From NCBI RefSeq assembly GCF_000024845.1, contig NC_013501.1:1182001-1246000 (forward strand): a stretch of 64,000 nucleotides of DNA, in the 5' to 3' direction. The position numbers were made by a program, and so were the translations under genes. The DNA comes from Rhodothermus marinus DSM 4252 (GTDB taxonomy: Bacteria > Bacteroidota > Rhodothermia > Rhodothermales > Rhodothermaceae). The number at the start of each line of letters is the position of its first letter. Within the stretch, counting starts at the first letter, position 1. Of the stretch, positions 7,068-39,487 are shown one piece after another. Below the pieces are notes generated by a model, which worked only from the letters and a program-made list of their open reading frames with translations, was not told the origin of the DNA and did no database searches.

Positions 7068-9449
7068 AAAGCCGAGCCAGACCAGGTTGATCAGCGGCTT
7101 TTCGTAGGCCTGCACGACGATCCAGTCGTCGGGCATCACCTCGACGCCTTCGATGGCCAGCGTGATCTCGCCGGAGCTGACGTTCATGCCCGTGAACGTC
7201 ACGGCCAGGTTCCAGTCGCGCACGCGCGTCTGGATGTACTGCACCGAGCGATCGGCACGCACCAGATAGACGGGCCGGAGCGTGCGCGTCTCCTGCGTCT
7301 GCAGGTTCGTCAGGTGCAGTACGGCCGCCACTGCGATGGCCGTACTGTCGGGGAGCAGGGAGGGATCGACCTGCGTGTCGAAGCCCACGAAGCGGAGGGC
7401 GAACTCCTGGCGGCCGAGCACAACCGAATCGCCGCGGGCCAGCACCAGCTCACCGCCGTTCTCCGAAAAAGTCGAATCCTGCTCGAACATCTCGGCGGGC
7501 GAGACGGCTACGTACAGGTCCTTCCAGAACCCCATTTTGATGTCGGGGTGTAGGATCCATTCGCCACGGCGGTTCTGATAGGCTACCGGCTTGAGCGTAA
7601 AGGTCTGGCCGTCGGGCGCAGTAAACGACAGCCGATAGAAGGCATGGCCTTCCGGTGTGAAGCCGCGCCCTTCGTAGCGCACCTCGTAGCCGCCCACGCG
7701 GCGGGCCTCCTCGCGCACGAGCACGAAGTTGGTGCGCTCGTCGTCGCGCAGGGCCGGGGGAACGTCCCGGTGGGGGAGGGGCAGGCTGAAGCCGCTGGAA
7801 GCCACCACGCCCAGCAGCATCACGCCCAGGCCGATGTGCGAAAGCGCGCCGCCGGCCAGACGCGGATTGCCCCGGGCGATGCGCCAGAGCACCTGCAGAT
7901 TCCCGAAAAAGGCGAAAAATGCCGCAAAGACGAGCAGCAGAAGCAGCAGGCTGAAGCCGTAGGCCTGCCAGAGCTGCGTCAGACCGCCGAGCACGCCGGC
8001 CTGGGCCATCGGGCTGCCTGAAACGGCAAGGGGAGGACGCACCGTGTATTCGACGAACGGCGTCAGGAGCAGCACGGCCAGCGTGGCTACCACCGAGAGC
8101 GCCAGCGGTCGCAGCAACAGCCGGTGCGCCATCTCGATGTCCATCTTGTGCCACCAGATGAGCTGGGCCGCGCCCATCAGGAACGTGAAAACCACGGCCA
8201 GCGGAAGCGTCCACTGGTTGTAGAACGAGGTGGCGACGCTGGCCGGGTTGTCTCGAAACAGCTTGCCCAGGATGGGCGCGCTCGTGCCCACCAGGATCAC
8301 CAGGGCGGTGACGGTCAGCAGCAGCGCCCCGACGAAGATCAGCGCTTCCCGCGAGAGCAGGGGCGGCTCTTCGGCCGGGGCCGGAAGCTCCCGGTAGCGG
8401 ACAAACAGCAGACCGCCGCCCAGCAGCGCCATCGCGGCGATCCAGACCACGAGCTGGTTGTGCAGGCCCAGATCGACGAACGAGTGCACGGACAGATCGC
8501 CCAGAATACCGCTGCGCGTCAGGAACGTCGAGTAGATCACCAGCACGTAGCTGATCAGGCTCAGCACAAGGGCCATGCGGTAGCCGCGGCCGCTGCGCTT
8601 CTGGATGAGCATGGCGTGCAGGGCCGCCGCGCCCGTCAGCCAGGGCACGAACGAGGAATTTTCCACGGGATCCCAGGCCCAGTAGCCGCCGAACGAAAGC
8701 GTCTCGTACGCCCAGTAGCCGCCCAGCAGGATGCCCAGGCCCAGCACGAGCACGGCGAAAAGCATCCAGGGCATGGCCACGCGGATCCAGTCGCGGTAGC
8801 GCCGCTGCCAGAGGGCGGCCACGGCCAGCGCGAACGGTGCCACCATGGCCGCAAAGCCCACGAACAGCGTGGGTGGGTGGGCCGTCATCCAGGGGTTCAG
8901 CAGCAGGTCGTTGAGGCCGTTGCCGTCGGCCGGCACGAAGGCGGGATTCTGGCGGAAGATCGGCGCGTCCGGAAAGCGCTCGACGAGAAGCTGGAAGGGC
9001 GAGGAGCCGATCGCCAGGGGTCCCAGCTTCAACCCCACGATCATCGACAGCAGAAACGCCTGGCTGAGTGCCACGACGGCCATGGCCGGTGCTTCGAAGC
9101 GCCCCGACCAGCGCATGAGCCCGAAGCCGATCAGACCCGTATAGAGAATCCAGAGCAGAAACGAGCCTTCCTGTCCGGCCCAGAACGAAGAAATCAGGTA
9201 GTGCAGCGGAAGGTCGCGCGACGAGTACTGATAGACGTAGGCGTACTGAAACTGGTGCGTTAGGATCAGATAGAGGAGTACGGCGGAAGCCACCCCCGTG
9301 GCCCCGAACATCACGCCCCAGCTTCCCCGAGCCAGGCGGAGCCAGTCGAACGCTTCGCGCCGGCGGGCGGCCTGCAGATACGCCAGCCCGGCCAGCAGGC
9401 ACGCCACGAAAGCCGACAGGACGGCCAGTTGTCCCAGAACCCCTGCCAT
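6990..9449 (-). CDS. ccmF: CcmF-type cytochrome c heme lyase subunit
   Basis: Polytopic membrane protein of 819 residues, with many hydrophobic helices, from the heme-handling protein family. It carries the tryptophan-rich WWD-type segment (GGYWAWDPVENSSFVPWL) that presents heme to apocytochrome c, and the GQEGSFLLWILY and MTAHPPTLFVG histidine-containing segments typical of CcmF/NrfE. It is longer than the ~650-residue proteobacterial CcmF because of a C-terminal, probably periplasmic, extension. No other ccm gene lies in the window. Start: ATG at 9449 just before the first membrane helix; an upstream start at 9494 would add 15 polar residues. It converges with the preceding small gene. Confidence 0.92.
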   Translation of the reverse strand: MAGVLGQLAVLSAFVACLLAGLAYLQAARRREAFDWLRLARGSWGVMFGATGVASAVLLYLILTHQFQYAYVYQYSSRDLPLHYLISSFWAGQEGSFLLWILYTGLIGFGLMRWSGRFEAPAMAVVALSQAFLLSMIVGLKLGPLAIGSSPFQLLVERFPDAPIFRQNPAFVPADGNGLNDLLLNPWMTAHPPTLFVGFAAMVAPFALAVAALWQRRYRDWIRVAMPWMLFAVLVLGLGILLGGYWAYETLSFGGYWAWDPVENSSFVPWLTGAAALHAMLIQKRSGRGYRMALVLSLISYVLVIYSTFLTRSGILGDLSVHSFVDLGLHNQLVVWIAAMALLGGGLLFVRYRELPAPAEEPPLLSREALIFVGALLLTVTALVILVGTSAPILGKLFRDNPASVATSFYNQWTLPLAVVFTFLMGAAQLIWWHKMDIEMAHRLLLRPLALSVVATLAVLLLTPFVEYTVRPPLAVSGSPMAQAGVLGGLTQLWQAYGFSLLLLLLVFAAFFAFFGNLQVLWRIARGNPRLAGGALSHIGLGVMLLGVVASSGFSLPLPHRDVPPALRDDERTNFVLVREEARRVGGYEVRYEGRGFTPEGHAFYRLSFTAPDGQTFTLKPVAYQNRRGEWILHPDIKMGFWKDLYVAVSPAEMFEQDSTFSENGGELVLARGDSVVLGRQEFALRFVGFDTQVDPSLLPDSTAIAVAAVLHLTNLQTQETRTLRPVYLVRADRSVQYIQTRVRDWNLAVTFTGMNVSSGEITLAIEGVEVMPDDWIVVQAYEKPLINLVWLGFLLMSGGIGLALVRRARELRQILRRR

Positions 9450-9825
9450 GATCGCTGCTTGATTGCCCCGGAAGTCTCCAGAGCAGAAAGGCATTGCGTC
9501 GAAGGGGTTCCGAAAGAGCGGCTTTCCCGGCCGTGATTCACCAGATTTTTCTTGCCGGTCTTATATGTGATCGCTGATTTACCGGTGCATAAGGGTGCCA
9601 CACCCCGTGTGGCGGACGTGACCCGGCGGGTATGATCGGGCGGACACAGGGGTCCGCCCCTACAGGATAAGGAAAACGTCAAGGATCTGGTAGGGGCGCA
9701 CCGAAGCGTGCGCCCGTGCTTTCTCACATGCACGATGATTTCTCGGAAATCGTATGAGAACATGCTTCTGCGAAAGCACACGTCTTTAAGCCACGGCACG
9801 GTTTGCCGATTTTTCAAGGAAAGGG
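9450..9825. other. Non-coding stretch with repeats before the trp leader
   Basis: About 376 bases with no supportable gene. It holds the 5' region of ccmF (minus strand), a composite palindromic repeat at 9638-9751 (listed separately), and the sequence upstream of the trp leader promoter. Short open frames here are unsupported. Confidence 0.6.
9638..9751 (+). repeat. REPIN-like composite repeat, copy 1
   Basis: Two palindromes joined by a fixed spacer. GGGCGGAC/GTCCGCCC pairs 9638-9645 with 9652-9659, and GGGCGCAC/GTGCGCCC pairs 9694-9701 with 9708-9715. The 25-base spacer 9664-9688 (AGGATAAGGAAAACG...) recurs, 23 of 25 identical, in inverted orientation at 39231-39255. A third inverted repeat, GATTTC/GAAATC, lies at 9737-9742 and 9746-9751 and also recurs in the second copy. 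Confidence 0.85.
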
Positions 9826-9855
9826 TTGTGCAACCGCGCAATCTCGTTGTATCTT
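9826..9855 (+). promoter_or_regulatory. Possible trp operon promoter
   Basis: TTGTGC at 9826-9831, an 18-base spacer, and TATCTT at 9850-9855, the same -10 hexamer as at the GH10 promoter. The -35 is weak. The -10 ends only 10 bases before the leader ATG, which would give a 5' leader of about four bases, so either the leader peptide is nearly leaderless or the true promoter lies further upstream. Confidence 0.35.
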
Positions 9856-9865
9856 TAAGGCCACG

Positions 9866-9949
9866 ATGCGGCACGTTGCGTATCATAGCGCCCACTATTT
9901 TGGCTGGTGGTGGTTTAGCCCCGCCGCGGTGGGCCGCGCACGTGCCTGA
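9866..9949 (+). CDS. trpL: Trp operon leader peptide with three tandem Trp codons
   Basis: A 27-codon open frame starting ATG CGG CAC and ending TGA, preceded by TAAGG at 9856-9860. Codons 14-16 are TGG TGG TGG (9905-9913; peptide FGWWWF). Three consecutive Trp codons are very improbable by chance and are the hallmark of ribosome-sensed trp attenuation. The frame ends 70 bases before trpE and lies directly over segments 1 and 2 of the attenuator. When charged tRNA-Trp is scarce the ribosome should stall on these codons. The peptide itself probably has no other role. It is too short for routine gene calling. Confidence 0.88.
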   Translation: MRHVAYHSAHYFGWWWFSPAAVGRARA

Positions 9950-10008
9950 ATCGTGCATTCCGTAGCGAAATCAGTCGGCCCACCGCAAGCTTCGCGGTGG
10001 GCTTTTTT
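9890..10008 (+). promoter_or_regulatory. Trp attenuator (alternative RNA structures)
   Basis: Four segments can pair in mutually exclusive ways. Segment 1 is GCCCAC (9890-9895), segment 2 GCGGTGGGCC (9926-9935), segment 3 GGCCCACCGC (9977-9986), segment 4 GCGGTGGGC (9994-10002). 1:2 gives 6 perfect pairs around the Trp codons, 2:3 gives a perfect 10-bp antiterminator, and 3:4 gives a perfect 9-bp terminator stem followed by six U. Stalling on codons 14-16 would cover segment 1, free segment 2, favour 2:3 and allow transcription into trpE. This is the classical proteobacterial logic, read here directly from base pairing. Confidence 0.87.
9978..10008 (+). terminator. Rho-independent terminator of the trp attenuator
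   Basis: GCCCACCGC (9978-9986) pairs perfectly with GCGGTGGGC (9994-10002) across a 7-base loop and is followed by TTTTTT at 10003-10008. It lies 12 bases before the trpE start codon, so it must be bypassed for trpE to be expressed. Confidence 0.9.
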
Positions 10009-10019
10009 CGTTAGGTGCC

Positions 10020-11510
10020 ATGACGTTCGAGCGCTTTCAGGCATTGATCGACACGCACCGGACGGCCGGCCACACGCACCTGTTCGTGCCGGTCTTCCGG
10101 CGGCTGGGCGCCGACCTGCTCACGCCCGTGTCGGCCTTTCTGAAACTGCGCGGGCATGAACCCGGCGCTTTTCTGCTGGAAAGCGTCGAAGGCGGCGAGA
10201 AGCTCGGCCGCTACTCGTTCCTGGGCGTGCGACCCTACCTGACCGTGGAGGTGCGCGACGGACAGGTGACGCTGCAACGGGCGAATGCCGCGCCCGAGAC
10301 AAGTCCGGACGACTTCTTCGCCACCATGCGGCGGTTGCTCCGCCGGTATCATCCGGTCCAGGTGCCCGAGCTGCCGCGCTTTACGGGCGGGGCCGTGGGC
10401 TACCTGGGCTACGATATGATCCGGCAACTGGAGCGCCTGCCTGCCCCGCCGCCCGACGACCTGGGCCTGCCCGACGCCCGCTGGAACTTCTACGACACGG
10501 TGGTGGCCTTCGACCACGTGCGGCACCAGCTCGTGCTCATGGCGGGCGTTTTCGTGGAGCCCGAGACCGACCTGCGTGCGGCCTACGACGAGGCCGTCGC
10601 CCGTCTGGACGCGCTCACCGACACCCTTTCGCACGCGCCGCTGGAGGCCCCCGAGCCGGTCTCGCTCCCCGAGACGCCGCTCACGTCGAACTTCACGCGG
10701 GAGGATTTCTGCCGGGCGGTCTGCCGCGCCAAAGACTACATCTACGAAGGCGATATTTTCCAGGTGGTGCTCTCCCAGCGGTTTGCCACGCCGTACGCGG
10801 GCGACCGCTTCAATCTGTACCGGGCGCTCCGCCAGGTCAATCCGTCGCCCTACCTGTTCTATATCGATTTCGGCGACCTGGCGCTGATCGGTTCGTCGCC
10901 CGAGGTGCTCGTGCGCGTCGAGCACGGCCGGGCCGAGGTGCTGCCCATTGCGGGCACGCGGCCGCGCGGCCGCACGCCCGAAGAGGATCGGGCGCTGGAG
11001 GCTGAGCTGGAAGCCGACCCCAAGGAACAGGCCGAGCACCTGATGCTCGTCGATCTGGGCCGCAACGACCTGGGGCGTGTATGCCGCTTCGGGACGGTTC
11101 AGGTGGAGCGTTTCGCGTTCGTCGTGCGCTACTCGCACGTGATGCACCTGGTGTCGCTCGTGGCCGGCGAACTCGATCCGCGCTACGACGCGCTCGATGC
11201 GCTGGCGGCGTGCTTTCCGGCCGGCACCGTCAGCGGCGCGCCCAAGGTGCGGGCCATGGAGATCATCGACGAGCTGGAGCCCACGCGGCGCGGCGTCTAT
11301 GCCGGGGCGGTGGGCTACATGGATTTTTCGGGCAATCTGGACACCTGCATTGCCATCCGCACCATGGTGGTCCGCAACGGCACGATCTACGTCCAGGCCG
11401 GGGCGGGCATCGTGGCCGACAGCGACCCCGAACGCGAGTACGAGGAAACCGTTAACAAGGCCCGGGCGCTGGTCGAGGCCATGCGCGTCGCCGCGTCCGG
11501 TTTGCTTTAA
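10020..11510 (+). CDS. trpE: Anthranilate synthase component I
   Basis: Makes anthranilate from chorismate using ammonia delivered by TrpG. The 496-residue protein has the N-terminal regulatory segment FLLESVEGGEKLGRYSF, whose LLES motif binds Trp in feedback-inhibited enzymes, so feedback inhibition is likely. The chorismate-binding domain is complete (PIAGTRPRGRTPEED, DLGRNDLGRV, FPAGTVSGAPKVRAMEIIDE, VQAGAGIVADSDPE). First structural gene of the trp operon, directly downstream of the attenuator; AGGTG lies just before the ATG. Confidence 0.97.
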   Translation: MTFERFQALIDTHRTAGHTHLFVPVFRRLGADLLTPVSAFLKLRGHEPGAFLLESVEGGEKLGRYSFLGVRPYLTVEVRDGQVTLQRANAAPETSPDDFFATMRRLLRRYHPVQVPELPRFTGGAVGYLGYDMIRQLERLPAPPPDDLGLPDARWNFYDTVVAFDHVRHQLVLMAGVFVEPETDLRAAYDEAVARLDALTDTLSHAPLEAPEPVSLPETPLTSNFTREDFCRAVCRAKDYIYEGDIFQVVLSQRFATPYAGDRFNLYRALRQVNPSPYLFYIDFGDLALIGSSPEVLVRVEHGRAEVLPIAGTRPRGRTPEEDRALEAELEADPKEQAEHLMLVDLGRNDLGRVCRFGTVQVERFAFVVRYSHVMHLVSLVAGELDPRYDALDALAACFPAGTVSGAPKVRAMEIIDELEPTRRGVYAGAVGYMDFSGNLDTCIAIRTMVVRNGTIYVQAGAGIVADSDPEREYEETVNKARALVEAMRVAASGLL

Positions 11511-11530
11511 AAACCAACCCCGAACCGACC

Positions 11531-12022
11531 ATGGCTTCGCTGAAAGAACTGATCTTCAACAAAGGCGGGATCGGGAAGTCGCTCTCCCGCCAGGAAACCG
11601 TCGAGCGGATCAACCCGCTCATCCGCGAGCACATTGCGCTCAATCATCAGCACGACTACGTGATCCGTACGATCGGCGATGCCGAGATCGCCGAGCGGCT
11701 GGAGCAGTTTCAGAAGATCGCCCGCGTGGACGTCGGCAAGCTGGCCGAGGTGGTCTTCAGCGCGGGCGGCACGGCCTACAGCGGCGTCGATATGGAGCCG
11801 GACGACTTCAATCTGGGCACCGATCCGGCCGAGATGATCCACCGCCTGCTGGAGGCCGAGCGGCGCTTTCTGCAGCTCGTGAACGACGAGCTCAAGCTCA
11901 ACCATCAGATCCGTACGAAGGCCGTGCTGAACCTGGTGCGTCAGCACAGCGAGGAACGCCTGCGTTACCTGCAGGAAGTGGCCCGACGCTACCCGAAACC
12001 AGCGACCCTGGCGACGTCATGA
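11531..12022 (+). CDS. Unknown helical, possibly ferritin-like, protein in the trp operon
   Basis: 163 residues, predominantly helical with charged heptad-like patterns. His/Glu-rich helices (REHIALNHQHDYVIRTIGDAE, LLEAERRFLQLVNDELKLNH, RQHSEERLRYL) resemble ferritin-like four-helix proteins, but I cannot confirm a di-iron ligand set. It sits 20 bases after trpE, and its stop overlaps the trpS start (ATGA), so it is expressed with the trp genes. It has no role in the known tryptophan pathway. I recognise no named family. Confidence 0.85.
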   Translation: MASLKELIFNKGGIGKSLSRQETVERINPLIREHIALNHQHDYVIRTIGDAEIAERLEQFQKIARVDVGKLAEVVFSAGGTAYSGVDMEPDDFNLGTDPAEMIHRLLEAERRFLQLVNDELKLNHQIRTKAVLNLVRQHSEERLRYLQEVARRYPKPATLATS

Positions 12023-13083
12023 GTACGGCAACGACGGCAACGGCCCCGCATACGGTACAGCCGGCCGGTGCGGCTACCCGGACTATCGTGGTCTCGGGGA
12101 TCCAGCCGTCCGGCGAGCTGCATCTGGGGAACTACTTCGGGGCGATTCGCCAGCACCTGGAGCTGCATGAGCGGTACGAATCGTACTTCTTCATCGTCAA
12201 CTACCATGCCCTGACGACCATTCACGACCGGGAGGCGCTGCGGCGCTATACGTTTGAAGCCGCCCTTACCTATCTGGCGCTGGGCTTCAAGCCCGAAAAG
12301 GCTGCACTCTTCGTGCAGAGCGACGTGCCCGAGGTGACCGAGCTGGCCTGGATCTTCTACAACCTGGTACCGGTCTCCACGCTTGAAAAGGGCGTGGCCT
12401 ACAAGGACAAGGTGGCCCAGGGCCTGCCGGCCAATGCCGGGCTTTTCAACTACCCTGTGCTGCAGGCGGCCGACATCCTGATCTACGGAGGCACGCTCGT
12501 GCCCGTCGGCGCCGATCAGAAGCAGAACATCGAGATCTGCCGCGACATCGCGCAGCGCTTCAACCGGACGTTCTGCCCGCCGGATCGGTCGCTGTTTCCC
12601 ATCCCGGAGCCGCTCATTCGGGAGGAGGTGGCCGTGGTCCCGGGCATCGACGGGCGGAAAATGTCGAAAAGCTACGGCAACACGATCGGCATCTTCGACG
12701 AGGGCAAGACGCTGCGCAAGAAGGTGATGTCGATCGTGACCGACTCGACGCCGCTCGAGGCGCCGAAGGATCCGGAGCGCTGCAATGTGTTTGCGCTGAT
12801 CAAACTGTTCGCCGACGAAGAAACGCGCAACCGGATCGCCGAAGCCTACCGGCGGGGCGGCTACGGCTACGGCGACGCCAAGAAGGAGCTGATCCGGCTC
12901 ATCGACGAGCACTTTGCCGAGGCGCGTGAGCGGCGGCGCGAGCTGCTGAAGCATCCGGACTACGTGATGGACGTGCTGCGCGAGGGGGCCCGCAAGGGCC
13001 GCCGGCGGGCGCAGGAGATGATGGAGCAGGTGCGGGATCTGGTCGGGCTCAACTACGCCACCTATCGGTCGGAGGCGTCATGA
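12019..13083 (+). CDS. trpS: Tryptophanyl-tRNA synthetase
   Basis: Charges tRNA-Trp. The 354-residue protein starts with a ~20-residue Ala/Thr-rich tail and then the class I core: SGIQPSGELHLGNYFGAIRQ (HIGH-type motif), YPVLQAADILIY, PVGADQKQNIEICRDIA and PGIDGRKMSKSYGNTIG (KMSKS). The ATG at 12019 overlaps the previous stop by four bases, and its own stop overlaps the trpG start by four. Placing trpS inside the operon links tRNA-Trp charging, the signal sensed by the leader peptide, to the operon's own expression. Confidence 0.96.
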   Translation: MSTATTATAPHTVQPAGAATRTIVVSGIQPSGELHLGNYFGAIRQHLELHERYESYFFIVNYHALTTIHDREALRRYTFEAALTYLALGFKPEKAALFVQSDVPEVTELAWIFYNLVPVSTLEKGVAYKDKVAQGLPANAGLFNYPVLQAADILIYGGTLVPVGADQKQNIEICRDIAQRFNRTFCPPDRSLFPIPEPLIREEVAVVPGIDGRKMSKSYGNTIGIFDEGKTLRKKVMSIVTDSTPLEAPKDPERCNVFALIKLFADEETRNRIAEAYRRGGYGYGDAKKELIRLIDEHFAEARERRRELLKHPDYVMDVLREGARKGRRRAQEMMEQVRDLVGLNYATYRSEAS

Positions 13084-13694
13084 TTCTGGTGATCGACAAC
13101 TACGATTCGTTTACCTACAACCTGGTGCACCTGCTGGGGCGGCACACGCAGGATCTGCGCGTGGTGCGTAACGATGCGGTCACGCTCGACGAGGTGCGGG
13201 CCCTGCAGCCCGAGGCGATCCTGATCTCGCCGGGACCGGGGCGTCCGGCCGAGGCGGGCATCACGGAAGCCGTCATCGCCGAACTGGGACCGACCACGCC
13301 GATCCTGGGCGTGTGCCTGGGCCATCAGGCGATCGGAGAGGTCTTCGGCGGGCGTGTGGTGCATGCCCCGTCGCTCATGCACGGCAAGACGAGCCGCATC
13401 TTCCACATCGGGACCGGAATCTTCGAGGGGGCGGCACAGGGCTTCACGGCCACGCGCTACCATTCGCTGGTGGTCGATCGCGACACGCTGCCCGACGTGC
13501 TGGAGATCACGGCCTGGACCGAGGACGGGGTGATCATGGGGCTGCGCCACCGGCACCATCCGATCGAAGGCGTGCAGTTTCATCCGGAAAGTGTGCTCAC
13601 GACCGAAGGGCCGCGCCTGATCGCAAACTGGCTGCGCCAGGTGAAGGCATGGCATCAGGCCCGTGCGACATCGATCCCGCAAACGCAACGATAG
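13080..13694 (+). CDS. trpG: Anthranilate synthase component II (glutamine amidotransferase)
   Basis: Class I glutamine amidotransferase of 204 residues that releases ammonia for TrpE. It begins ILVIDNYDSFTYNLVHLLG; the catalytic Cys is in GVCLGHQAIGEVFGG, and the His/Glu of the triad are in EGVQFHPESVLT. YHSLVVD is also present. TrpE has its own gene (not fused), separated from trpG by two genes. Could also serve folate synthesis (PabA) as in other amphibolic TrpG proteins, but the trp location favours this role. Confidence 0.96.
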   Translation: MILVIDNYDSFTYNLVHLLGRHTQDLRVVRNDAVTLDEVRALQPEAILISPGPGRPAEAGITEAVIAELGPTTPILGVCLGHQAIGEVFGGRVVHAPSLMHGKTSRIFHIGTGIFEGAAQGFTATRYHSLVVDRDTLPDVLEITAWTEDGVIMGLRHRHHPIEGVQFHPESVLTTEGPRLIANWLRQVKAWHQARATSIPQTQR

Positions 13695-13700
13695 ACCGCC

Positions 13701-14750
13701 ATGCAACCCTACCTGACCGCGCTGGCCGAGGGCCGCACGCTGACGCAGGAAGAGGCCGAGGCGGCCATGCATCTGATGATGCGCGGCGAGGCGTCGCCCG
13801 AGCAGATCGCCGGCCTGCTCATGGGACTGCGGGCGCGGGGCGAGACGCTCGACGAACTGGTGGGCTTTACGCGCGTCATGCGCCAGTACGCCGTGCCCGT
13901 GCGCGTGGACGATCCGCATGCAATCGACCTGTGCGGTACGGGTGGCGACCGTTCCGGCACGTTCAACATCTCGACGGCCGCCGCCTTCGTGTGCGCCGGA
14001 GCCGGCGTGACCGTGGTCAAGCACGGCAACCGTTCGGTTTCGTCGCAGGCCGGCTCGGCGGATGTGCTCGAAGCGCTGGGCGTGGCGATTGATCTGGGTG
14101 CGGAGGGGGTCGAGCGCTGTCTGGAGGAGGTGGGCATTGCCTTCGCCTTTGCGCCGCGCTTCCATCCGGCCATGCGCCACGTGATGCCGGTGCGTCGGGC
14201 GCTGGGCGTGCGGACGTTTTTCAACATCCTGGGGCCGCTCTGCAACCCGGCCGGCGTGCGCCGTCAGCTTGTGGGTGCCTTCCGGTCCGATGTGGCGGCT
14301 ACAATGGCGGCCATTCTGGCCCGGCTCGGCGCCGAGCACGTGGTGACCGTCCATGCCGAGGACGGCCTCGACGAGCTGTCGCTTTCGGCGCCCACGGCCA
14401 CCTACGAGTACCGGCGGGGCGACGAGGCGCCGCGGGCCGGACGTGTCGAGCCGGAAGCGCTCGGGCTTTCCCGTGTGCCGCTGGAGCAGTTGCGCGGGGG
14501 CGATGCCGAAGCCAACGCCCGCCTGCTGCGCCGCGTGCTCGAAGGCGAGGCCGGCCCGCACCGCGACGTGGTGCTGCTGAACGCAACCTACGCGCTTTAC
14601 GTGAGCGGTCGTTTCGGCGACGATCTCGAGGCGTGTCTGGAAGCCGCCCGCGAAAGCATCGACAGCGGCGCGGCCCTGGCACGCCTGGAGCAGCTGGTCG
14701 AAGTGTCGAACCGGGTGGCCCGTGAGGCTGCCCGCCAACCTGCCGCTTAG
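13701..14750 (+). CDS. trpD: Anthranilate phosphoribosyltransferase
   Basis: Transfers phosphoribose from PRPP to anthranilate. The 349-residue protein carries the PRPP and Mg motifs DLCGTGGDRSGTFNISTA, VVKHGNRSVSSQAGSADVLEALG, and HPAMRHVMPVRRALGVRTFFNILGPLCNPAG. It lies 6 bases after trpG. A ~200-base gap to trpC follows, with a perfect 8-bp hairpin (CTGGCCCC/GGGGCCAG, 14850-14869) but no T tract, so transcription probably continues. Confidence 0.96.
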   Translation: MQPYLTALAEGRTLTQEEAEAAMHLMMRGEASPEQIAGLLMGLRARGETLDELVGFTRVMRQYAVPVRVDDPHAIDLCGTGGDRSGTFNISTAAAFVCAGAGVTVVKHGNRSVSSQAGSADVLEALGVAIDLGAEGVERCLEEVGIAFAFAPRFHPAMRHVMPVRRALGVRTFFNILGPLCNPAGVRRQLVGAFRSDVAATMAAILARLGAEHVVTVHAEDGLDELSLSAPTATYEYRRGDEAPRAGRVEPEALGLSRVPLEQLRGGDAEANARLLRRVLEGEAGPHRDVVLLNATYALYVSGRFGDDLEACLEAARESIDSGAALARLEQLVEVSNRVAREAARQPAA

Positions 14751-14954
14751 TGCCATGGATCGCGCGATGCACCATGCGACCACGGAGCCCGGCCCGTTAG
14801 GCCGACGCACCTGCTACGATGAACGATTTAGCAGGCGGCGATGCTACTACTGGCCCCGCCGGGGGCCAGAAGCGAAAACGTCAGCGATCGATTCGGTTCG
14901 CTTTCGCTGCATCGTCGTCTGAAAATCGTTCACCGTAGCCAGGAGGAAACAGCC

Positions 14955-15776
14955 ATGACGATCTTAGAACAGATTGCCCGGACCGTACGCGAACGCCTGG
15001 AAGAACGCAAACGTCGCGTGCCCGTCTCGCTCCTGGAGGAGCGTTCCCATTACCAGAGTCCCACGCTGCCGCTGGCGCCGGCACTGCGCACCGGCGAACT
15101 GGCCATCATCGCTGAGCTCAAGAAGGCTTCGCCTTCGAAGGGCATCATTCGACGCGAGTTCAACGTACCGGAGCTGGCGCGCCAGTACAAATGGCACGGT
15201 GCGCAGGCCATCTCGGTGCTGACCGAACCCGACTACTTCCAGGGAAGTCTGGAGCACCTGGAAGCGGCGCGGCGCACCGTCGATCTGCCGCTGCTCCGGA
15301 AGGACTTCATTCTGGACCCCTACCAGATTGTCGAGGCGCGGGCCTACGGTGCCGACGCCGTGTTGCTGATTGCCGCGCTGCTCGATCCGGTGCAGCTGCA
15401 CGAACTACACGCCATGGCGACCGAGCTGGGGCTGTCATGCCTGGTGGAGGTGCACTCAGAGTCGGAGCTGGACCGGCTCGATCTGGATAAAATTGAAATA
15501 CTGGGTGTCAACAACCGCGACCTGCACACGTTCGAGGTGGATGTCAACCGGGCGGTGCAGGTGCTGCGGCACGTGCCCGAGCGGATCGTCCGTGTGGCCG
15601 AAAGCGGCCTGCGCACGGCCGACGAGCTGGTGCACCTGCGCCGACACGGCATCGACGCCGTGCTGATCGGCGAGGCGTTCATGCGGGCACCCCATCCGGG
15701 CGAGGCGCTCGAACGACTGCGCCGGGAAGTGCAACGGCGCCTTGCAGCGCCCGACATGCTCCGTATGGCGGTTTGA
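14955..15776 (+). CDS. trpC: Indole-3-glycerol phosphate synthase
   Basis: TIM-barrel enzyme of 273 residues converting CdRP to indole-3-glycerol phosphate. Catalytic segments are visible: IIAELKKASPSKGIIR, PLLRKDFILDPYQIVEARAYGADAVLLIA, EVHSESELDRL, LGVNNRDLHTFEVD, VAESGLRTADEL, and VLIGEAFMRAPHPG. Start: ATG at 14955, with AGGAGG at 14941-14946, eight bases upstream; an earlier in-frame start near 14841 adds unrelated residues. TrpC and TrpF are separate genes, not fused. Confidence 0.97.
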   Translation: MTILEQIARTVRERLEERKRRVPVSLLEERSHYQSPTLPLAPALRTGELAIIAELKKASPSKGIIRREFNVPELARQYKWHGAQAISVLTEPDYFQGSLEHLEAARRTVDLPLLRKDFILDPYQIVEARAYGADAVLLIAALLDPVQLHELHAMATELGLSCLVEVHSESELDRLDLDKIEILGVNNRDLHTFEVDVNRAVQVLRHVPERIVRVAESGLRTADELVHLRRHGIDAVLIGEAFMRAPHPGEALERLRREVQRRLAAPDMLRMAV

Positions 15777-15790
15777 GCCCAACAGAACCC

Positions 15791-16447
15791 ATGCTGAAGG
15801 TCAAAATCTGCGGCATTACGAATCTGGAAGACGCCCGGTACTGTGCGGCGGCCGGCGCGGACTTTCTGGGGTTCATTCAGTACCCGGAAAGTCCGCGCTA
15901 CGTGGCCCCCGAGGTGGCCCGGGAGATCATCGAGTGGATTCACGGGCCCGAAAAGGTGGGCGTGTTCGTGAACGCAACCCCTGACGCGGTGAACCGGGCC
16001 ATCGAGGAGGTGGGCTTTACCATGGTGCAGTTGCACGGCACCGAGCCCCCTGAGTGGTGCGCCGAGATTGATGCCCCGGTGATCAAAGCCATCCATGTGG
16101 TGCACGACGCGTCGGCCGAGCAGCTCCGGGCGCTCATGGAGCCCTATCGGCCGTGGGTGACCTACTTCTTGCTCGACACGCACAAAACGAACCTGTGGGG
16201 CGGAACAGGCGAATCGTTCAACTGGCGACTGGCCCGTGAGCTCTCGGCTGAATACCCGATCCTGCTGGCCGGCGGGATTGGCGCGCACAACCTGGAGGAG
16301 GCCGTCCGCACGATGCGTCCGCTGGGCGTGGACCTGTCGAGCAGCGTCGAGGCCGCCCCGGGCAAGAAGGATTTCGACAAGCTGGCCCGCTTTTTCGAGG
16401 TGTTTCATGCGCTCCGCAAACAACTGGAAGCGGAGGCCGCGGAATGA
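15791..16447 (+). CDS. trpF: Phosphoribosylanthranilate isomerase
   Basis: Amadori isomerase converting PRA to CdRP, 218 residues. It opens with the family signature MLKVKICGITNLEDARYCAAAGADFLGF (split: KICGIT, catalytic Cys) and has VQLHGTEPPEW, LLDTHKTNLWGGTGESFNW (catalytic Asp in LLDT) and LAGGIGAHNLEEAV. The ATG at 15791 gives the standard N-terminus; a TTG at 15773 overlapping the trpC stop is an alternative. It lies 14 bases after trpC. Confidence 0.95.
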   Translation: MLKVKICGITNLEDARYCAAAGADFLGFIQYPESPRYVAPEVAREIIEWIHGPEKVGVFVNATPDAVNRAIEEVGFTMVQLHGTEPPEWCAEIDAPVIKAIHVVHDASAEQLRALMEPYRPWVTYFLLDTHKTNLWGGTGESFNWRLARELSAEYPILLAGGIGAHNLEEAVRTMRPLGVDLSSSVEAAPGKKDFDKLARFFEVFHALRKQLEAEAAE

Positions 16448-16584
16448 GGACGGAAGTGGTGCGGGAGCGGAGAGAAAAGATCGGATCCGGGAGCGCCCGA
16501 CCGTTTCGGGGCATCACATCGCCTTGTCATGCGGAGCACAGAGGCTGAACGAACTGCTGTAAAATTCTGCAGGGGACACAGACC

Positions 16585-17793
16585 ATGTCGACCGCCGAGA
16601 CCGAACTGCTGACCTACGAGGCGCCGGACGCCACCGGACACTTCGGCCCCTACGGGGGCGCATTTGTGCCCGAGACGCTGGTGCCGGCGCTGGAAGCGTT
16701 GAAGGCGGCCTACGCCGAGGCGCGTCAGGATCCGGGCTTCTGGGAGGAATACCACGCCCTGCTCCGGGAATATGTGGGTCGGCCCACGCCGCTCACGTTC
16801 GCACCGCGCCTCAGCGAAGCGCTGGGCGGGCTGCAGATCTACCTGAAGCGGGAGGACCTGTGCCACACGGGTGCCCACAAGATCAACAACACGATCGGCC
16901 AGATCCTGCTGGCCCGGCGCATGGGCAAGACGCGCATCATCGCCGAGACGGGCGCCGGACAGCACGGCGTGGCGACGGCCACGGTGTGCGCCCGCTTTGG
17001 AATGCAGTGCGTCGTTTACATGGGCGCCGAAGATGTGGAGCGCCAGCACCTGAACGTGCTGCGCATGCAGTTGCTGGGCGCCGAGGTGCGACCCGTCGAG
17101 AGCGGGAGCCGCACGCTCAAAGACGCCACGAACGAGGCCATCCGCGACTGGGTGACGAACGTCCACGACACGTTCTACCTGATCGGCTCGGTGGTGGGAC
17201 CGCACCCGTACCCGATGCTCGTGCGCGACTTTCAGCGCGTGATCGGCGACGAGGTGCGGCGGCAACTGGCCGAACGCATCGGCCGGGAGACGCCCGACGC
17301 ACTGGTGGCCTGCGTGGGCGGCGGCTCGAACGCCATGGGCTTGTTCTATCCGTTCCTGAACGACCGCCATGTGCGCATGTACGGCGTGGAGGCGGCCGGC
17401 GAGGGGCTTGACCGCCGTCATGCCGCCACGCTCACCTGCGGGCGGCCCGGCATCCTGCACGGCGCCATGAGCTATCTGTTGCAGGACGACGACGGTCAGG
17501 TGCAGCTGGCCCATTCCATTTCGGCGGGGCTGGATTACCCGGGGGTGGGTCCCGAGCATGCCTACCTGAAGGATCTGGGGCGCGTCACCTACGTGACGGC
17601 CACCGACGAGGAGGCGCTGGAAGGCGTGCGGCTATTGGCCCGCACCGAAGGGATTATTCCGGCGCTGGAAACGGCGCACGCCATCGCGTTTCTGCCCCTC
17701 CTGGCCCGCGAGCTGGGGCCGGACGCCGTCGTGGTGGTCAACCTGTCCGGCCGCGGCGACAAAGACATGGGCACCATTGCACGGTATATGTAA
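16585..17793 (+). CDS. trpB: Tryptophan synthase beta chain
   Basis: PLP enzyme that condenses indole with serine, 402 residues, TrpB1 type. The PLP lysine is in [22 protein letters not shown]. Other family motifs: [48 protein letters not shown] and [16 protein letters not shown]. The 137-base gap after trpF is longer than most in the operon and carries a GCAGGGG element before the ATG. A single palindromic repeat follows the stop. Confidence 0.97.
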
Positions 17794-17858
17794 CCGGAAC
17801 CGGACCGGTGTGGACACCCATCCGAATGCGAACCCGGACGTACCGATTTGGATGAATG

Positions 17859-17888
17859 TGTAGGGGCACGGTGCGCCGCGCCCCTACA
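17859..17888 (+). repeat. Single palindromic intergenic repeat between trpB and trpA
   Basis: TGTAGGGG (17859-17866) pairs perfectly with CCCCTACA (17881-17888), the same outer stem as the repeats at 21023-21052 and 39201-39230. The flank GATGAACGATGGG resembles AATGAACGACAG beside the copy at 20962. It lies inside the trp transcription unit. Confidence 0.8.
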
Positions 17889-17935
17889 CAGATGAACGAT
17901 GGGACGCGACATGCCCCTGTAAAACCTGGGACGAC

Positions 17936-18766
17936 ATGATCGATCGCCTGCAATCGATGTTTGCAACGTTGCGGGCCCGTGGTGAGAAGGCCATGGGCCT
18001 GTTTCTGACGAACGGGTTTCCGGATCCGGAAAGCACCCGCCCGCTGCTGGAGGTCATCGACGAGGCCGGCGCGGATTTCATCGAGCTGGGCATGCCCTTC
18101 AGCGATCCGCTGGCCGAAGGCGTGCCGATCCAGCGGGCCAGCGAGCGGGCGCTTCGGCACGGCGTGCGTCTGACCGACGCCTTCCGCACTGCCGAATGGT
18201 TCCGGGCGCGGAGCCAGACACCGCTGCTGCTCATGGGCTACGTCAACCCGATCTATCGCTACGGCTACCGGGCCTTCTGCCGCGATGCCGCCCGGGCGGG
18301 CGTGGACGGATTGATCTTGGCCGATCTGCCGCCGGAAGAAAGCAGGGCGCTGGACGAAGCCGCCCGCGAGGCGGGCCTGGCCATGGTCTATCTGATCGCC
18401 CCGAACACGCCGGACGAACGCATCCGGGCGATCGACGAGCGCGCCACCGGGTTCGTCTATGCCGTGTCGGTGACCGGCCTGACCGGGAGCCAGTTGCCCG
18501 ATCATGCGGCCGTCGAGGCCTACCTGCAGCGGGCCCGCCGCCAGGTCCGGCGTAATCCCCTGCTGGTGGGGTTTGGGATCAAATCGCACGAAGACGCCCG
18601 GCGCCTGAGCCGCCACACGGACGGCTTCATCGTGGGCTCGGCGCTGATCCGGCTGGTCGAGCGGCTCTGGGACGATCCGGCGCTTACGCCGGAGGAGCGG
18701 CTGGCGTCCGTGCGCCGGTTCGTGCATGCGCTGAAGCACGGTACGCCGGTTCAGGTGGGCACCTGA
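17936..18766 (+). CDS. trpA: Tryptophan synthase alpha chain
   Basis: TIM-barrel subunit of 276 residues that cleaves indole-3-glycerol phosphate and channels indole to TrpB. The catalytic Glu49 equivalent is Glu50 ([13 protein letters not shown]). The residue equivalent to catalytic Asp60 is Glu61 ([10 protein letters not shown]), a conservative but unusual change. The phosphate-binding segments [25 protein letters not shown] and [11 protein letters not shown] are present. The ATG at 17936 follows the palindromic repeat; the gap to trpB is 142 bases. Confidence 0.94.
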
Positions 18767-18817
18767 GCCATGCGGCAACGTTCCACGCGCGTAACGCTCA
18801 CCCGACGCGAGATCGTC

Positions 18818-19927
18818 ATGCCCCGGCGCCTTGCTGTATTTTTCGGAATCACATGCCTGTCGTTTCTGCTTGGCTGCGGCAATGTGGACTACCGGCCGCT
18901 TGCCATCGGCGACAACGGCGAAATTCAGGTGGTGATCGATTCGACGCTGTGGGCCGGACCCGTCGGCGAGGCGCTGCGCATGGCGCTGGGCTATTACGTG
19001 CAAACGCTGCCCAATCCGGAGCCGTTTTTCCAATTGCGTCCCATTGAGCCGCGCATCCAGGACGATCTGGATCGCGTCAAAAAGTTCAAGAACGTGCTCT
19101 TCGTGGCGGCGCTGCGCGATTCGAGTCAGATCTCGCGACTGGTGCAGCAGGCCTTTTCGCCCGAGGCGTTGCAGGCCGTGCGTGAAGGCTCGGCGGCCGT
19201 CGTGCCCCGAGGCGACCTGTGGCGGCGGCGCCAGCTCGTCTATTTCATCGTGGCCGAGACCGATTCACAACTGGTCGAGGCGATCCGCCGGGCCACGCCG
19301 AAATTGCGGGAAGACTTCGACGAGATTGCACGCGAGCGGCTGGCCATCGAAATGTTCGAAAAGGGCCGCCAGTTCGACATCGAAGACACGCTCATGGCCC
19401 ATCATGGCTTTGCCGTGAACGTGCAGCATGACTATGTGCTGGTGTTCGACACGACGCGCTTCGTCTGGCTGCGGCGCGTATTGCCCGACACCTGGCGGAG
19501 CCTGTTTGTCTATTACGAAGAAAACGCCGATCCGGCGAAGCTGACGCCGGAATGGATCTACGCCACGCGCGACTCACTTACGCGCCGCTATCTGCAGGGC
19601 AATGCCGGGGGCTTTGTGCAGATCGACTATCGCCAACCGCTCGAGACGCGCCAGATCGACTTTCTGGGACGTTACGGCTACGAGACGCGCGGGCTCTGGC
19701 ACATGGTGACCGAACTGGACGACGGGCGACTGTTTCCGGCCGGCATGGGCGGCCCGTTTGTCAATTACTCTTTTTACGACCAGAAGAGCGGGCGCATTTA
19801 CATGATCGACGGGATGGTGTTCGCGCCCGGTTTTGAAAAACGTGAGTTTCTGCGCCAGATGGAAGTCATTGCCTATACATTCCGGACGCGCGAGGATGTG
19901 GCGTCCGAAACACCCGCTTCCCCGTAG
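18818..19927 (+). CDS. DUF4837 lipoprotein
   Basis: A 369-residue lipoprotein with the lipobox LSFLLGCG (Cys near residue 20), then the DUF4837 start [24 protein letters not shown]. The family is found in Bacteroidota and has no known function. I chose the ATG at 18818 because it gives a normal signal peptide; an ATG at 18770 would put 16 extra residues in front of it. It lies close behind trpA and just before hisG, so it is probably part of the same transcript. Confidence 0.85.
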
Positions 19928-19955
19928 TCAACAACCCAAAACCACACGTTGCCCT

Positions 19956-20888
19956 ATGTCCACCGAAACGGCTACGCTGACCCGAACGGAACGACCCGAC
20001 GAACAGCCCCGCCGCGTGTTGCGGCTGGGCCTGCCCAAGGGGAGTCTGCAGCAGGCCACGCTGGAGCTGCTCGAAAAAGCCGGGTTCAAGTTCAGCGTCA
20101 GCGAACGCTCCTACTTTCCTTCGACCGACGACGAGGAGCTGAGCGCCATGCTCGTGCGCGCTCAGGAAATGGCCCGTTACGTCGAAGACGGCGTCTTCGA
20201 CGCCGGCATCACGGGCAAGGACTGGGTGATGGAGACCGGCGCCGACGTGGTCACGGTGGCCGATCTCATCTACTCGAAGCAGAGCATGCGGCCGGTGCGC
20301 TGGGTGCTGGCCGTGGCCGAGGACTCCGACATCCGCTCGGTGCAGGACCTGCAGGGCAAGCGCATCGCCACCGAGGTGGTCAACCTGACGCGGCGCTGGC
20401 TGGCCGAGCGGGGCGTGGAAGCCGAGGTGGAGTTTTCCTGGGGGGCTACCGAGGCCAAGTGCCCGGAGCTGGTGGACGCCATCGTCGAGGTGACCGAGAC
20501 GGGCGCTTCGCTGCGGGCCAACCGGCTGCGCATTCTGGAGGTGCTCATGGAGTCGAACACCCAGCTCATCGCCAACAAGCAGGCCTGGCAGGACCCCTGG
20601 AAGCGTCGCAAGATCGAAAACATCGCGATGCTGATGGAAGGGGCCATCCGGGCCGAAAACCGGGTGGGCCTGAAGATGAACGCCCGCAAGGCGGATGTTG
20701 AGAAGATCATCCGAATGCTGCCGGCCATGCGGCGGCCGACGATCTCGCCGCTGGCGGCCGACGGCGAGGAGTGGGTGGCCATCGAAACGATCATCGAAGA
20801 AAAAGAAGTGCGCCGGCTGATCCCCGAACTCAAACGCGCCGGCGCCGAGGGCATCATCGAATATCCGCTCAACAAAGTGATCCCCTGA
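19956..20888 (+). CDS. hisG: ATP phosphoribosyltransferase, long form
   Basis: First enzyme of histidine synthesis. The 310-residue product is the long, self-contained form with a C-terminal regulatory ACT-like domain ([51 protein letters not shown]), so HisZ is not needed and feedback inhibition by His is likely. Core motifs: [59 protein letters not shown]-type segment. It begins with a 20-residue polar tail. No other his gene is present nearby; it follows the DUF4837 gene by 28 bases. Confidence 0.95.
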
Positions 20889-20961: not shown

Positions 20962-21052
20962 GGGCGCACACTGCGGTGCGCCCCTACCGAATGAACGACA
21001 GCGTTTGCACCATTTTCGGCATGTAGGGGCGGACACAACGGTCCGCCCCTAC
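20962..21052 (+). repeat. REPIN-like composite repeat, variant spacer
   Basis: GGGCGCAC (20962-20969) pairs with GTGCGCCC (20976-20983). GTAGGGGCGGAC (21023-21034) pairs with GTCCGCCCCTAC (21041-21052), a perfect 12-bp stem. The two palindromes match those at 9638-9715 in kind, but the spacer is different (CGAATGAACGACAGCG...). Confidence 0.85.
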
Positions 21053-39136: not shown

Positions 39137-39487
39137 GGAGGGGGCCACAGGGCCTGGGTGCGCTTGTCTTATACGATTTCGGGGAAATCATAGTGAGAAA
39201 GTAGGGGCGCACACTTCGGTGCGCCCCTACAGCTCCTTGACGTTTTCCCTATCCTGTAGGGGCGGACCACTGTGTCTGCCCTGTCTGTTCATCTTATAGC
39301 CTGAGGACGGGGGCTTCTTGGTACAGACGCTTCCAGCGTGCACGTCTGCTTATTTCAAGGAAGGCTATTCTGTCCCTCTTCGCATCGAAGGCAGCGTGGC
39401 ATCAGGTTGACCCGCTGTTGAAAGGCACATCGTGGCGCAATTCAGAGCGAAAAGGAGGGCTTTCTGCGGCTTTCTTTTTAGATAATC
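39137..39487. other. Non-coding stretch between lacI and GH43
   Basis: About 350 bases without a supportable gene. It carries the inverted composite repeat at 39171-39280 and ends at the GH43 promoter. A long stretch from 39300 to 39470 shows no structure I can name. Confidence 0.6.
39171..39280 (-). repeat. REPIN-like composite repeat, copy 2 (inverted)
   Basis: GTAGGGGCGCAC (39201-39212) pairs perfectly with GTGCGCCCCTAC (39219-39230). The second palindrome (about 39256-39280) is degenerate. The spacer 39231-39255 is the reverse complement of 9664-9688 with 2 mismatches, and ACGATTTC...GAAATCAT at the outer end matches the third inverted repeat of copy 1. Confidence 0.85.

Follow-up and report, generated by a model that had tools for sequence, protein, structure and literature searches.

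A very probable ribosome-mediated transcription attenuator before the trp operon of Rhodothermus marinus, and its recurrence across the class Rhodothermia

The 2004 attenuator survey of Vitreschak et al. is said to have mentioned Bacteroidetes/Chlorobi. Naville and Gautheret (2010) noted that Proteobacteria and Actinobacteria were the only groups with demonstrated leader-peptide systems before the Firmicutes cases they described (PMC2965389). Weinberg et al. (2010) listed the Bacteroid-trp element, RF01692, in Bacteroidetes (PMC2864571); it was later discussed for Flavobacterium (PMC6414381), and clues to leader-peptide attenuation have been described in F. psychrophilum (PMC9723704). A sequence-only reading of a 64,000-nt stretch of the R. 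marinus DSM 4252 genome (hereafter the window) placed a classical attenuator before trpE and considered Trp-codon attenuation remarkable in such a lineage. The attenuator anatomy is indeed present there, but the surprise was overstated, since Bacteroidetes Trp leaders were already in Rfam as RF01692.

RF01692 shares with the R. marinus element a Trp-rich leader, a position before trpE and the same GTDB phylum, but its segment sequences are unlike. The R. marinus element scored below the cut-off of its covariance model (gathering score 49 bits), as did all 10 class loci tested, and the whole R. marinus genome gave no match at E ≤ 10; four loci of our phylum sample, flavobacterial-type, scored above it. 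The E. coli-type Trp_leader, RF00513, has the same tandem Trp codons, four segments and terminator/antiterminator, but in R. marinus the leader ORF contains segment 2 and the transcript is probably leaderless; the match amounts to 14 bits, where the gathering score is 41. Hits to Rfam sRNA families (Qrr, GcvB and others) on the element also remained below their gathering scores and were taken as terminator resemblance. The element is new and is modelled by neither RF01692 nor RF00513, while the mechanism proposed for it is an already known and ordinary one. As an RNA element outside current Rfam models, it could be annotated in many genomes.

Two further systems invite comparison. The leaderless trpL of Sinorhizobium (S. 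meliloti; rnTrpL/peTrpL, PMC7298713) belongs to another phylum but has an RNA beginning at or by the trpL ATG (predicted here within 0-4 nt), a WWW leader and a terminator. The attenuators of pheST in gamma-proteobacteria and of trpS2 in Streptomyces avermitilis (PMC1262725) likewise place a synthetase gene under a leader sensing its own charged tRNA; in Rhodothermia, by contrast, the only trpS sits inside the biosynthetic operon (93 of 97 class genomes). The R. marinus locus is of interest because the element is deeply conserved, probably starts leaderless and would have the genome's one trpS under its command.

The anatomy of the locus is collected in the table. The 27-codon leader with three tandem TGG codons over four complementary segments lies exactly where the sequence-only reading had put it.

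Table. Features of the trp attenuator and operon of R. marinus (positions in the window)
Feature	Position	Strand	Details
-33 element of predicted Bacteroidota-type promoter	9826-9828	+	TTG; 24 nt before TA of the -7 box
-7 element	9850-9857	+	TATCTTTA; consensus TAnnTTTG
Predicted transcription start	9862-9866	+	0-4 nt before leader ATG; from promoter position
trpL leader peptide ORF	9866-9949	+	27 codons, translation MRHVAYHSAHYFGWWWFSPAAVGRARA*; kept in six Rhodothermus genomes
Segment 1	9890-9896	+	GCCCAC(T), partner (G)GTGGGC at 9928-9934; minimum-energy fold; invariant within genus
Three tandem Trp codons, putative stall site	9905-9913	+	TGGTGGTGG = TGG TGG TGG
Segment 2	9926-9936	+	GCGGTGGGCCG; inside leader ORF
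Leader stop codon	9947-9949	+	10 nt 3' of segment 2
Segment 3	9976-9986	+	CGGCCCACCGC; common to antiterminator 2:3 and terminator 3:4
Segment 4	9994-10002	+	GCGGTGGGC; terminator 3' arm
Terminator U-run	10003-10008	+	T6; ends 11 nt before trpE
trpE, anthranilate synthase component I	10020-11510	+	TIGR00564, 588.5 bits vs cut-off 517.7
163-aa protein	11531-12022	+	no family assigned; between trpE and trpS
trpS, tryptophanyl-tRNA synthetase	12019-13083	+	TIGR00233; only genome copy
trpG	13080-13694	+	TIGR00566
trpD	13701-14750	+	TIGR01245
trpC	14841-15776	+	NF001377; profile match from residue 39
trpF	15773-16447	+	PF00697, NF002298
trpB	16585-17793	+	TIGR00263
trpA	17936-18766	+	TIGR00262

Segments 2 and 3 pair without mismatch over their whole length, so the perfect antiterminator helix that had been proposed stands, with 11 bp and not 10. 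The terminator helix 3:4 was described correctly: GCCCACCGC (9978-9986) pairs with segment 4 over 9 perfect bp, followed directly by six U, and a separate prediction also called an intrinsic terminator. The 6 bp claimed for helix 1:2 were found with one additional G-U pair in the minimum-energy fold, in which the helix encloses the Trp codons; segment 1 is constant across the genus, and the evidence for 1:2 comes from folding. Folded as a whole, the 143-nt RNA reaches -66.5 kcal/mol (z -2.97), a value that 1 of 200 shuffles matches.

The geometry of the segments agrees with control by a translating ribosome. Segment 2 begins 12 nt past the last Trp codon and, as the leader stop codon lies beyond it, a ribosome completing the leader has traversed segment 2. 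In computed folds, RNA left free from 14 nt beyond the first base of each of the Trp codons adopts the 2:3 helix at -32 to -33 kcal/mol, and a ribosome at or beyond 9920 leaves just -8 to -11 kcal/mol. Helices 2:3 and 3:4 are mutually exclusive through their common segment 3, and these models indicate that stalling at the Trp codons would free the antiterminator.

Upstream of the leader, a TTG and a TAnnTTTG box form a predicted Bacteroidota-type promoter. A strict definition (TTG followed after 20-21 nt by TA, the latter 12-16 nt ahead of the ATG) found it before 66 of 80 leaders, while shuffles gave a mean of 1.3 and a maximum of 5; a permissive score, passed by 0.42 of shuffles, was dropped in favour of this strict test. 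Nearly all relatives in the class show a spacing of 23 or 24 from TTG to TA. The TAnnTTTG box of F. psychrophilum covers -12 to -5 relative to the start site (PMC9723704), a rule which would place the transcript start 0-4 nt before the leader ATG, at about 9862. Judging from promoter position, the leader is probably leaderless or nearly so, its RNA starting at or near the ATG.

From these elements we infer the start site, the stalling, the termination and their dependence on tryptophan as follows. RNA polymerase would start at or a few nucleotides before the leader ATG. Under a shortage of charged tRNA-Trp, the leading ribosome would stall on the three UGG codons, covering segment 1 and leaving segment 2 free to pair with segment 3; with 2:3 formed, the terminator could not arise and trpE-orf-trpS-G-D-C-F-B-A would be transcribed. 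With ample charged tRNA-Trp, the ribosome would run through segment 2 to the stop codon, segment 3 would pair with segment 4, and polymerase would halt at the U-run. If the leader were not translated, 1:2 and 3:4 would both form and transcription would be expected to halt too.

Comparison within the genus bears directly on this scheme. The sequence-only reading had set in advance the retention of the TGG run and of the pairing in relatives as its test. All six Rhodothermus genomes for which the region before trpE is available carry the leader MRHVAYHSAHY[FY]GWWWF, and the Trp run is also kept in most of the class. All 2:3 and 3:4 pairs are retained in the same six genomes (alignment A1). In one of them, G167, segments 2 and 4 have GCGGTGGGC replaced by GCAGTGGGC, and segment 3 has GCCCACCGC replaced by GCCCACTGC; in the aligned sequences this is a single substitution matched in segments 2, 3 and 4, that is, a three-way compensation. 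Covariation within the genus amounts to one changed pair per helix, which shuffles match in 80 and 96 of 500 cases and which by itself falls short of significance.

The comparison was extended to the class Rhodothermia, with trpE found in 245 genomes and the sequence before it examined in 108. In 77 of these 108 regions trpE is preceded by a terminator and a leader holding two or more Trp within six residues; the same rule accepted 4 of 106 reverse-complemented regions, a single one of 106 taken further upstream, and 1 of 540 shuffles. The pairing of segment 2 with segment 3 surpasses shuffles (p ≤ 0.05) in 60 of 80 genomes. Segments also prefer their own partners, with a mean of -17.3 kcal/mol against -13.5 for permuted partners and -14.8 for the best of 2000 permutations, although this swap test gave scant or zero advantage in families f8, f9, f10 and f12. 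The full classical attenuator claimed by the sequence-only reading is supported as a mechanism by its anatomy, its recurrence in the class and the compensated pairing in G167.

These data also weigh on a simpler account, in which the hairpin is a constitutive terminator, for instance of upstream read-through, and the WWW ORF and the antiterminator are incidental. Helix 3:4 is strong by itself and some class relatives have only weak 2:3 pairing, as this account would allow; yet it would leave unexplained the recurrence of a Trp-rich leader with a terminator at a frequency so far above that of the further-upstream control, the co-evolution of segment 2 with segment 3, and a conserved promoter just 5' of the leader. 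We consider it very improbable.

Class-wide, the Trp run is the sole conserved part of the leader peptide, the remainder not being conserved beyond the genus, and this distribution speaks to what the leader would sense. Trp-containing leader peptides of tna operons act by nascent-peptide arrest, and the R. marinus leader might by analogy respond to free tryptophan in a TnaC-like manner rather than to charged tRNA-Trp through its codons. Such arrest is hard to reconcile with conservation of the Trp codon run without other peptide residues, with a biosynthetic operon that must rise at low Trp, or with a terminator/antiterminator pair in place of the Rho-dependent site of tna, and there is very little to recommend it here. 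Less remote, but still unlikely, is an action of the terminated leader RNA or peptide in trans, like that of S. meliloti rnTrpL/peTrpL (PMC7298713): the predicted leaderless start would yield a small free leader mRNA of the rnTrpL kind, but the peptide outside WWW shows no conservation past Rhodothermus. A trans role is compatible with attenuation in cis and is not an alternative to it.

We read the element with high confidence as a classical attenuator of the trp operon, acting on transcription through the ribosome, because of its anatomy, the geometry of its folds, its conservation in genus and class, the co-variation, its position next to trpE and the complete trp operon behind it. The leader, the Trp codons, the exclusive helices, the terminator, their conservation and co-variation and the operon itself are established by sequence and comparison. 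Also counted in favour were the WWW leaders found before trpE in several phylum families outside the class, and the absence of TrpR (PF01371) and TRAP (PF02081) matches in the R. marinus genome, the only genome searched for both. Codon-based trp attenuation would be inherited throughout this deeply branching class, where it is probably ancestral. Together with RF01692 it would span much of the phylum and be no proteobacterial speciality. Outside Bacteroidota, a Calditrichota MAG (L200) has a WWWW leader and a T-run before trpE.

Not every genome of the order has kept the element; the losses concentrate in families f3, f13 and f15. The Trp leader is missing before trpE in G133-G143 and in part of f13 and f15, with trpS still in the operon, and at such loci another gene often ends within 80 nt of trpE. 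Three genomes of family f14 (G236-G238) have one-Trp leaders and a strong terminator, with trpS on another contig; theirs is possibly a degenerate or re-tuned attenuator.

The genes behind the attenuator give the locus its second point of interest. The genome searched is made up of two contigs and 3,386,737 bases, of which the larger contig accounts for 3,261,604, and trpS gave a single match in all of it. This gene overlaps both of its neighbours, and the strict promoter definition gave no second hit in 9000-18800 on the + strand. Of 97 class genomes checked, 93 have trpS no more than 5 kb downstream of trpE; at the loci outside the class, no trpS turned up in the first 1.5 kb behind trpE. 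With the only trpS inside the attenuated operon, a regulator responsive to charging would govern the charging enzyme. A broader proposal, that a leaderless Trp leader controls both tryptophan synthesis and the cell's only tryptophanyl-tRNA synthetase throughout Rhodothermia, is put forward tentatively, as plausible but slightly easier to doubt than to accept. If true, it would describe a closed loop in which low charging of tRNA-Trp raises tryptophan plus its tRNA-charging enzyme, and the predicted leaderless start with the sole trpS in the operon would offer a simple model of tRNA charging controlling its own enzyme.

Some details of the operon and its surroundings deserve mention. The true trpC start is probably downstream of 14841, as the profile match begins at residue 39. 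The 163-aa protein has no Pfam or NCBIfam match; it occupies the same place in most Rhodothermales loci and was not found in the class loci of other orders that were tested. Modelled from its single sequence, it is predicted with low confidence (pLDDT 62) to form a four-helix bundle, with weak Dps/ferritin-like matches, none at E ≤ 0.001. After trpA, a 385-aa lipoprotein-like ORF and then hisG follow in the same direction (18770-20888, +). A simple scan limited to hisG, pheA and ilvB gave no other attenuator, and no His leader was found before hisG. Finally, a palindromic repeat, GTAGGGGCG[CG]AC...GT[CG]CGCCC, is dispersed through the genome, with 7 matches in the window and some 30 more elsewhere; its sites include 9638-9715, 20962-20987, 21023-21052 and 39201-39230, and a REP-like inverted pair sits just 5' of the trp promoter.
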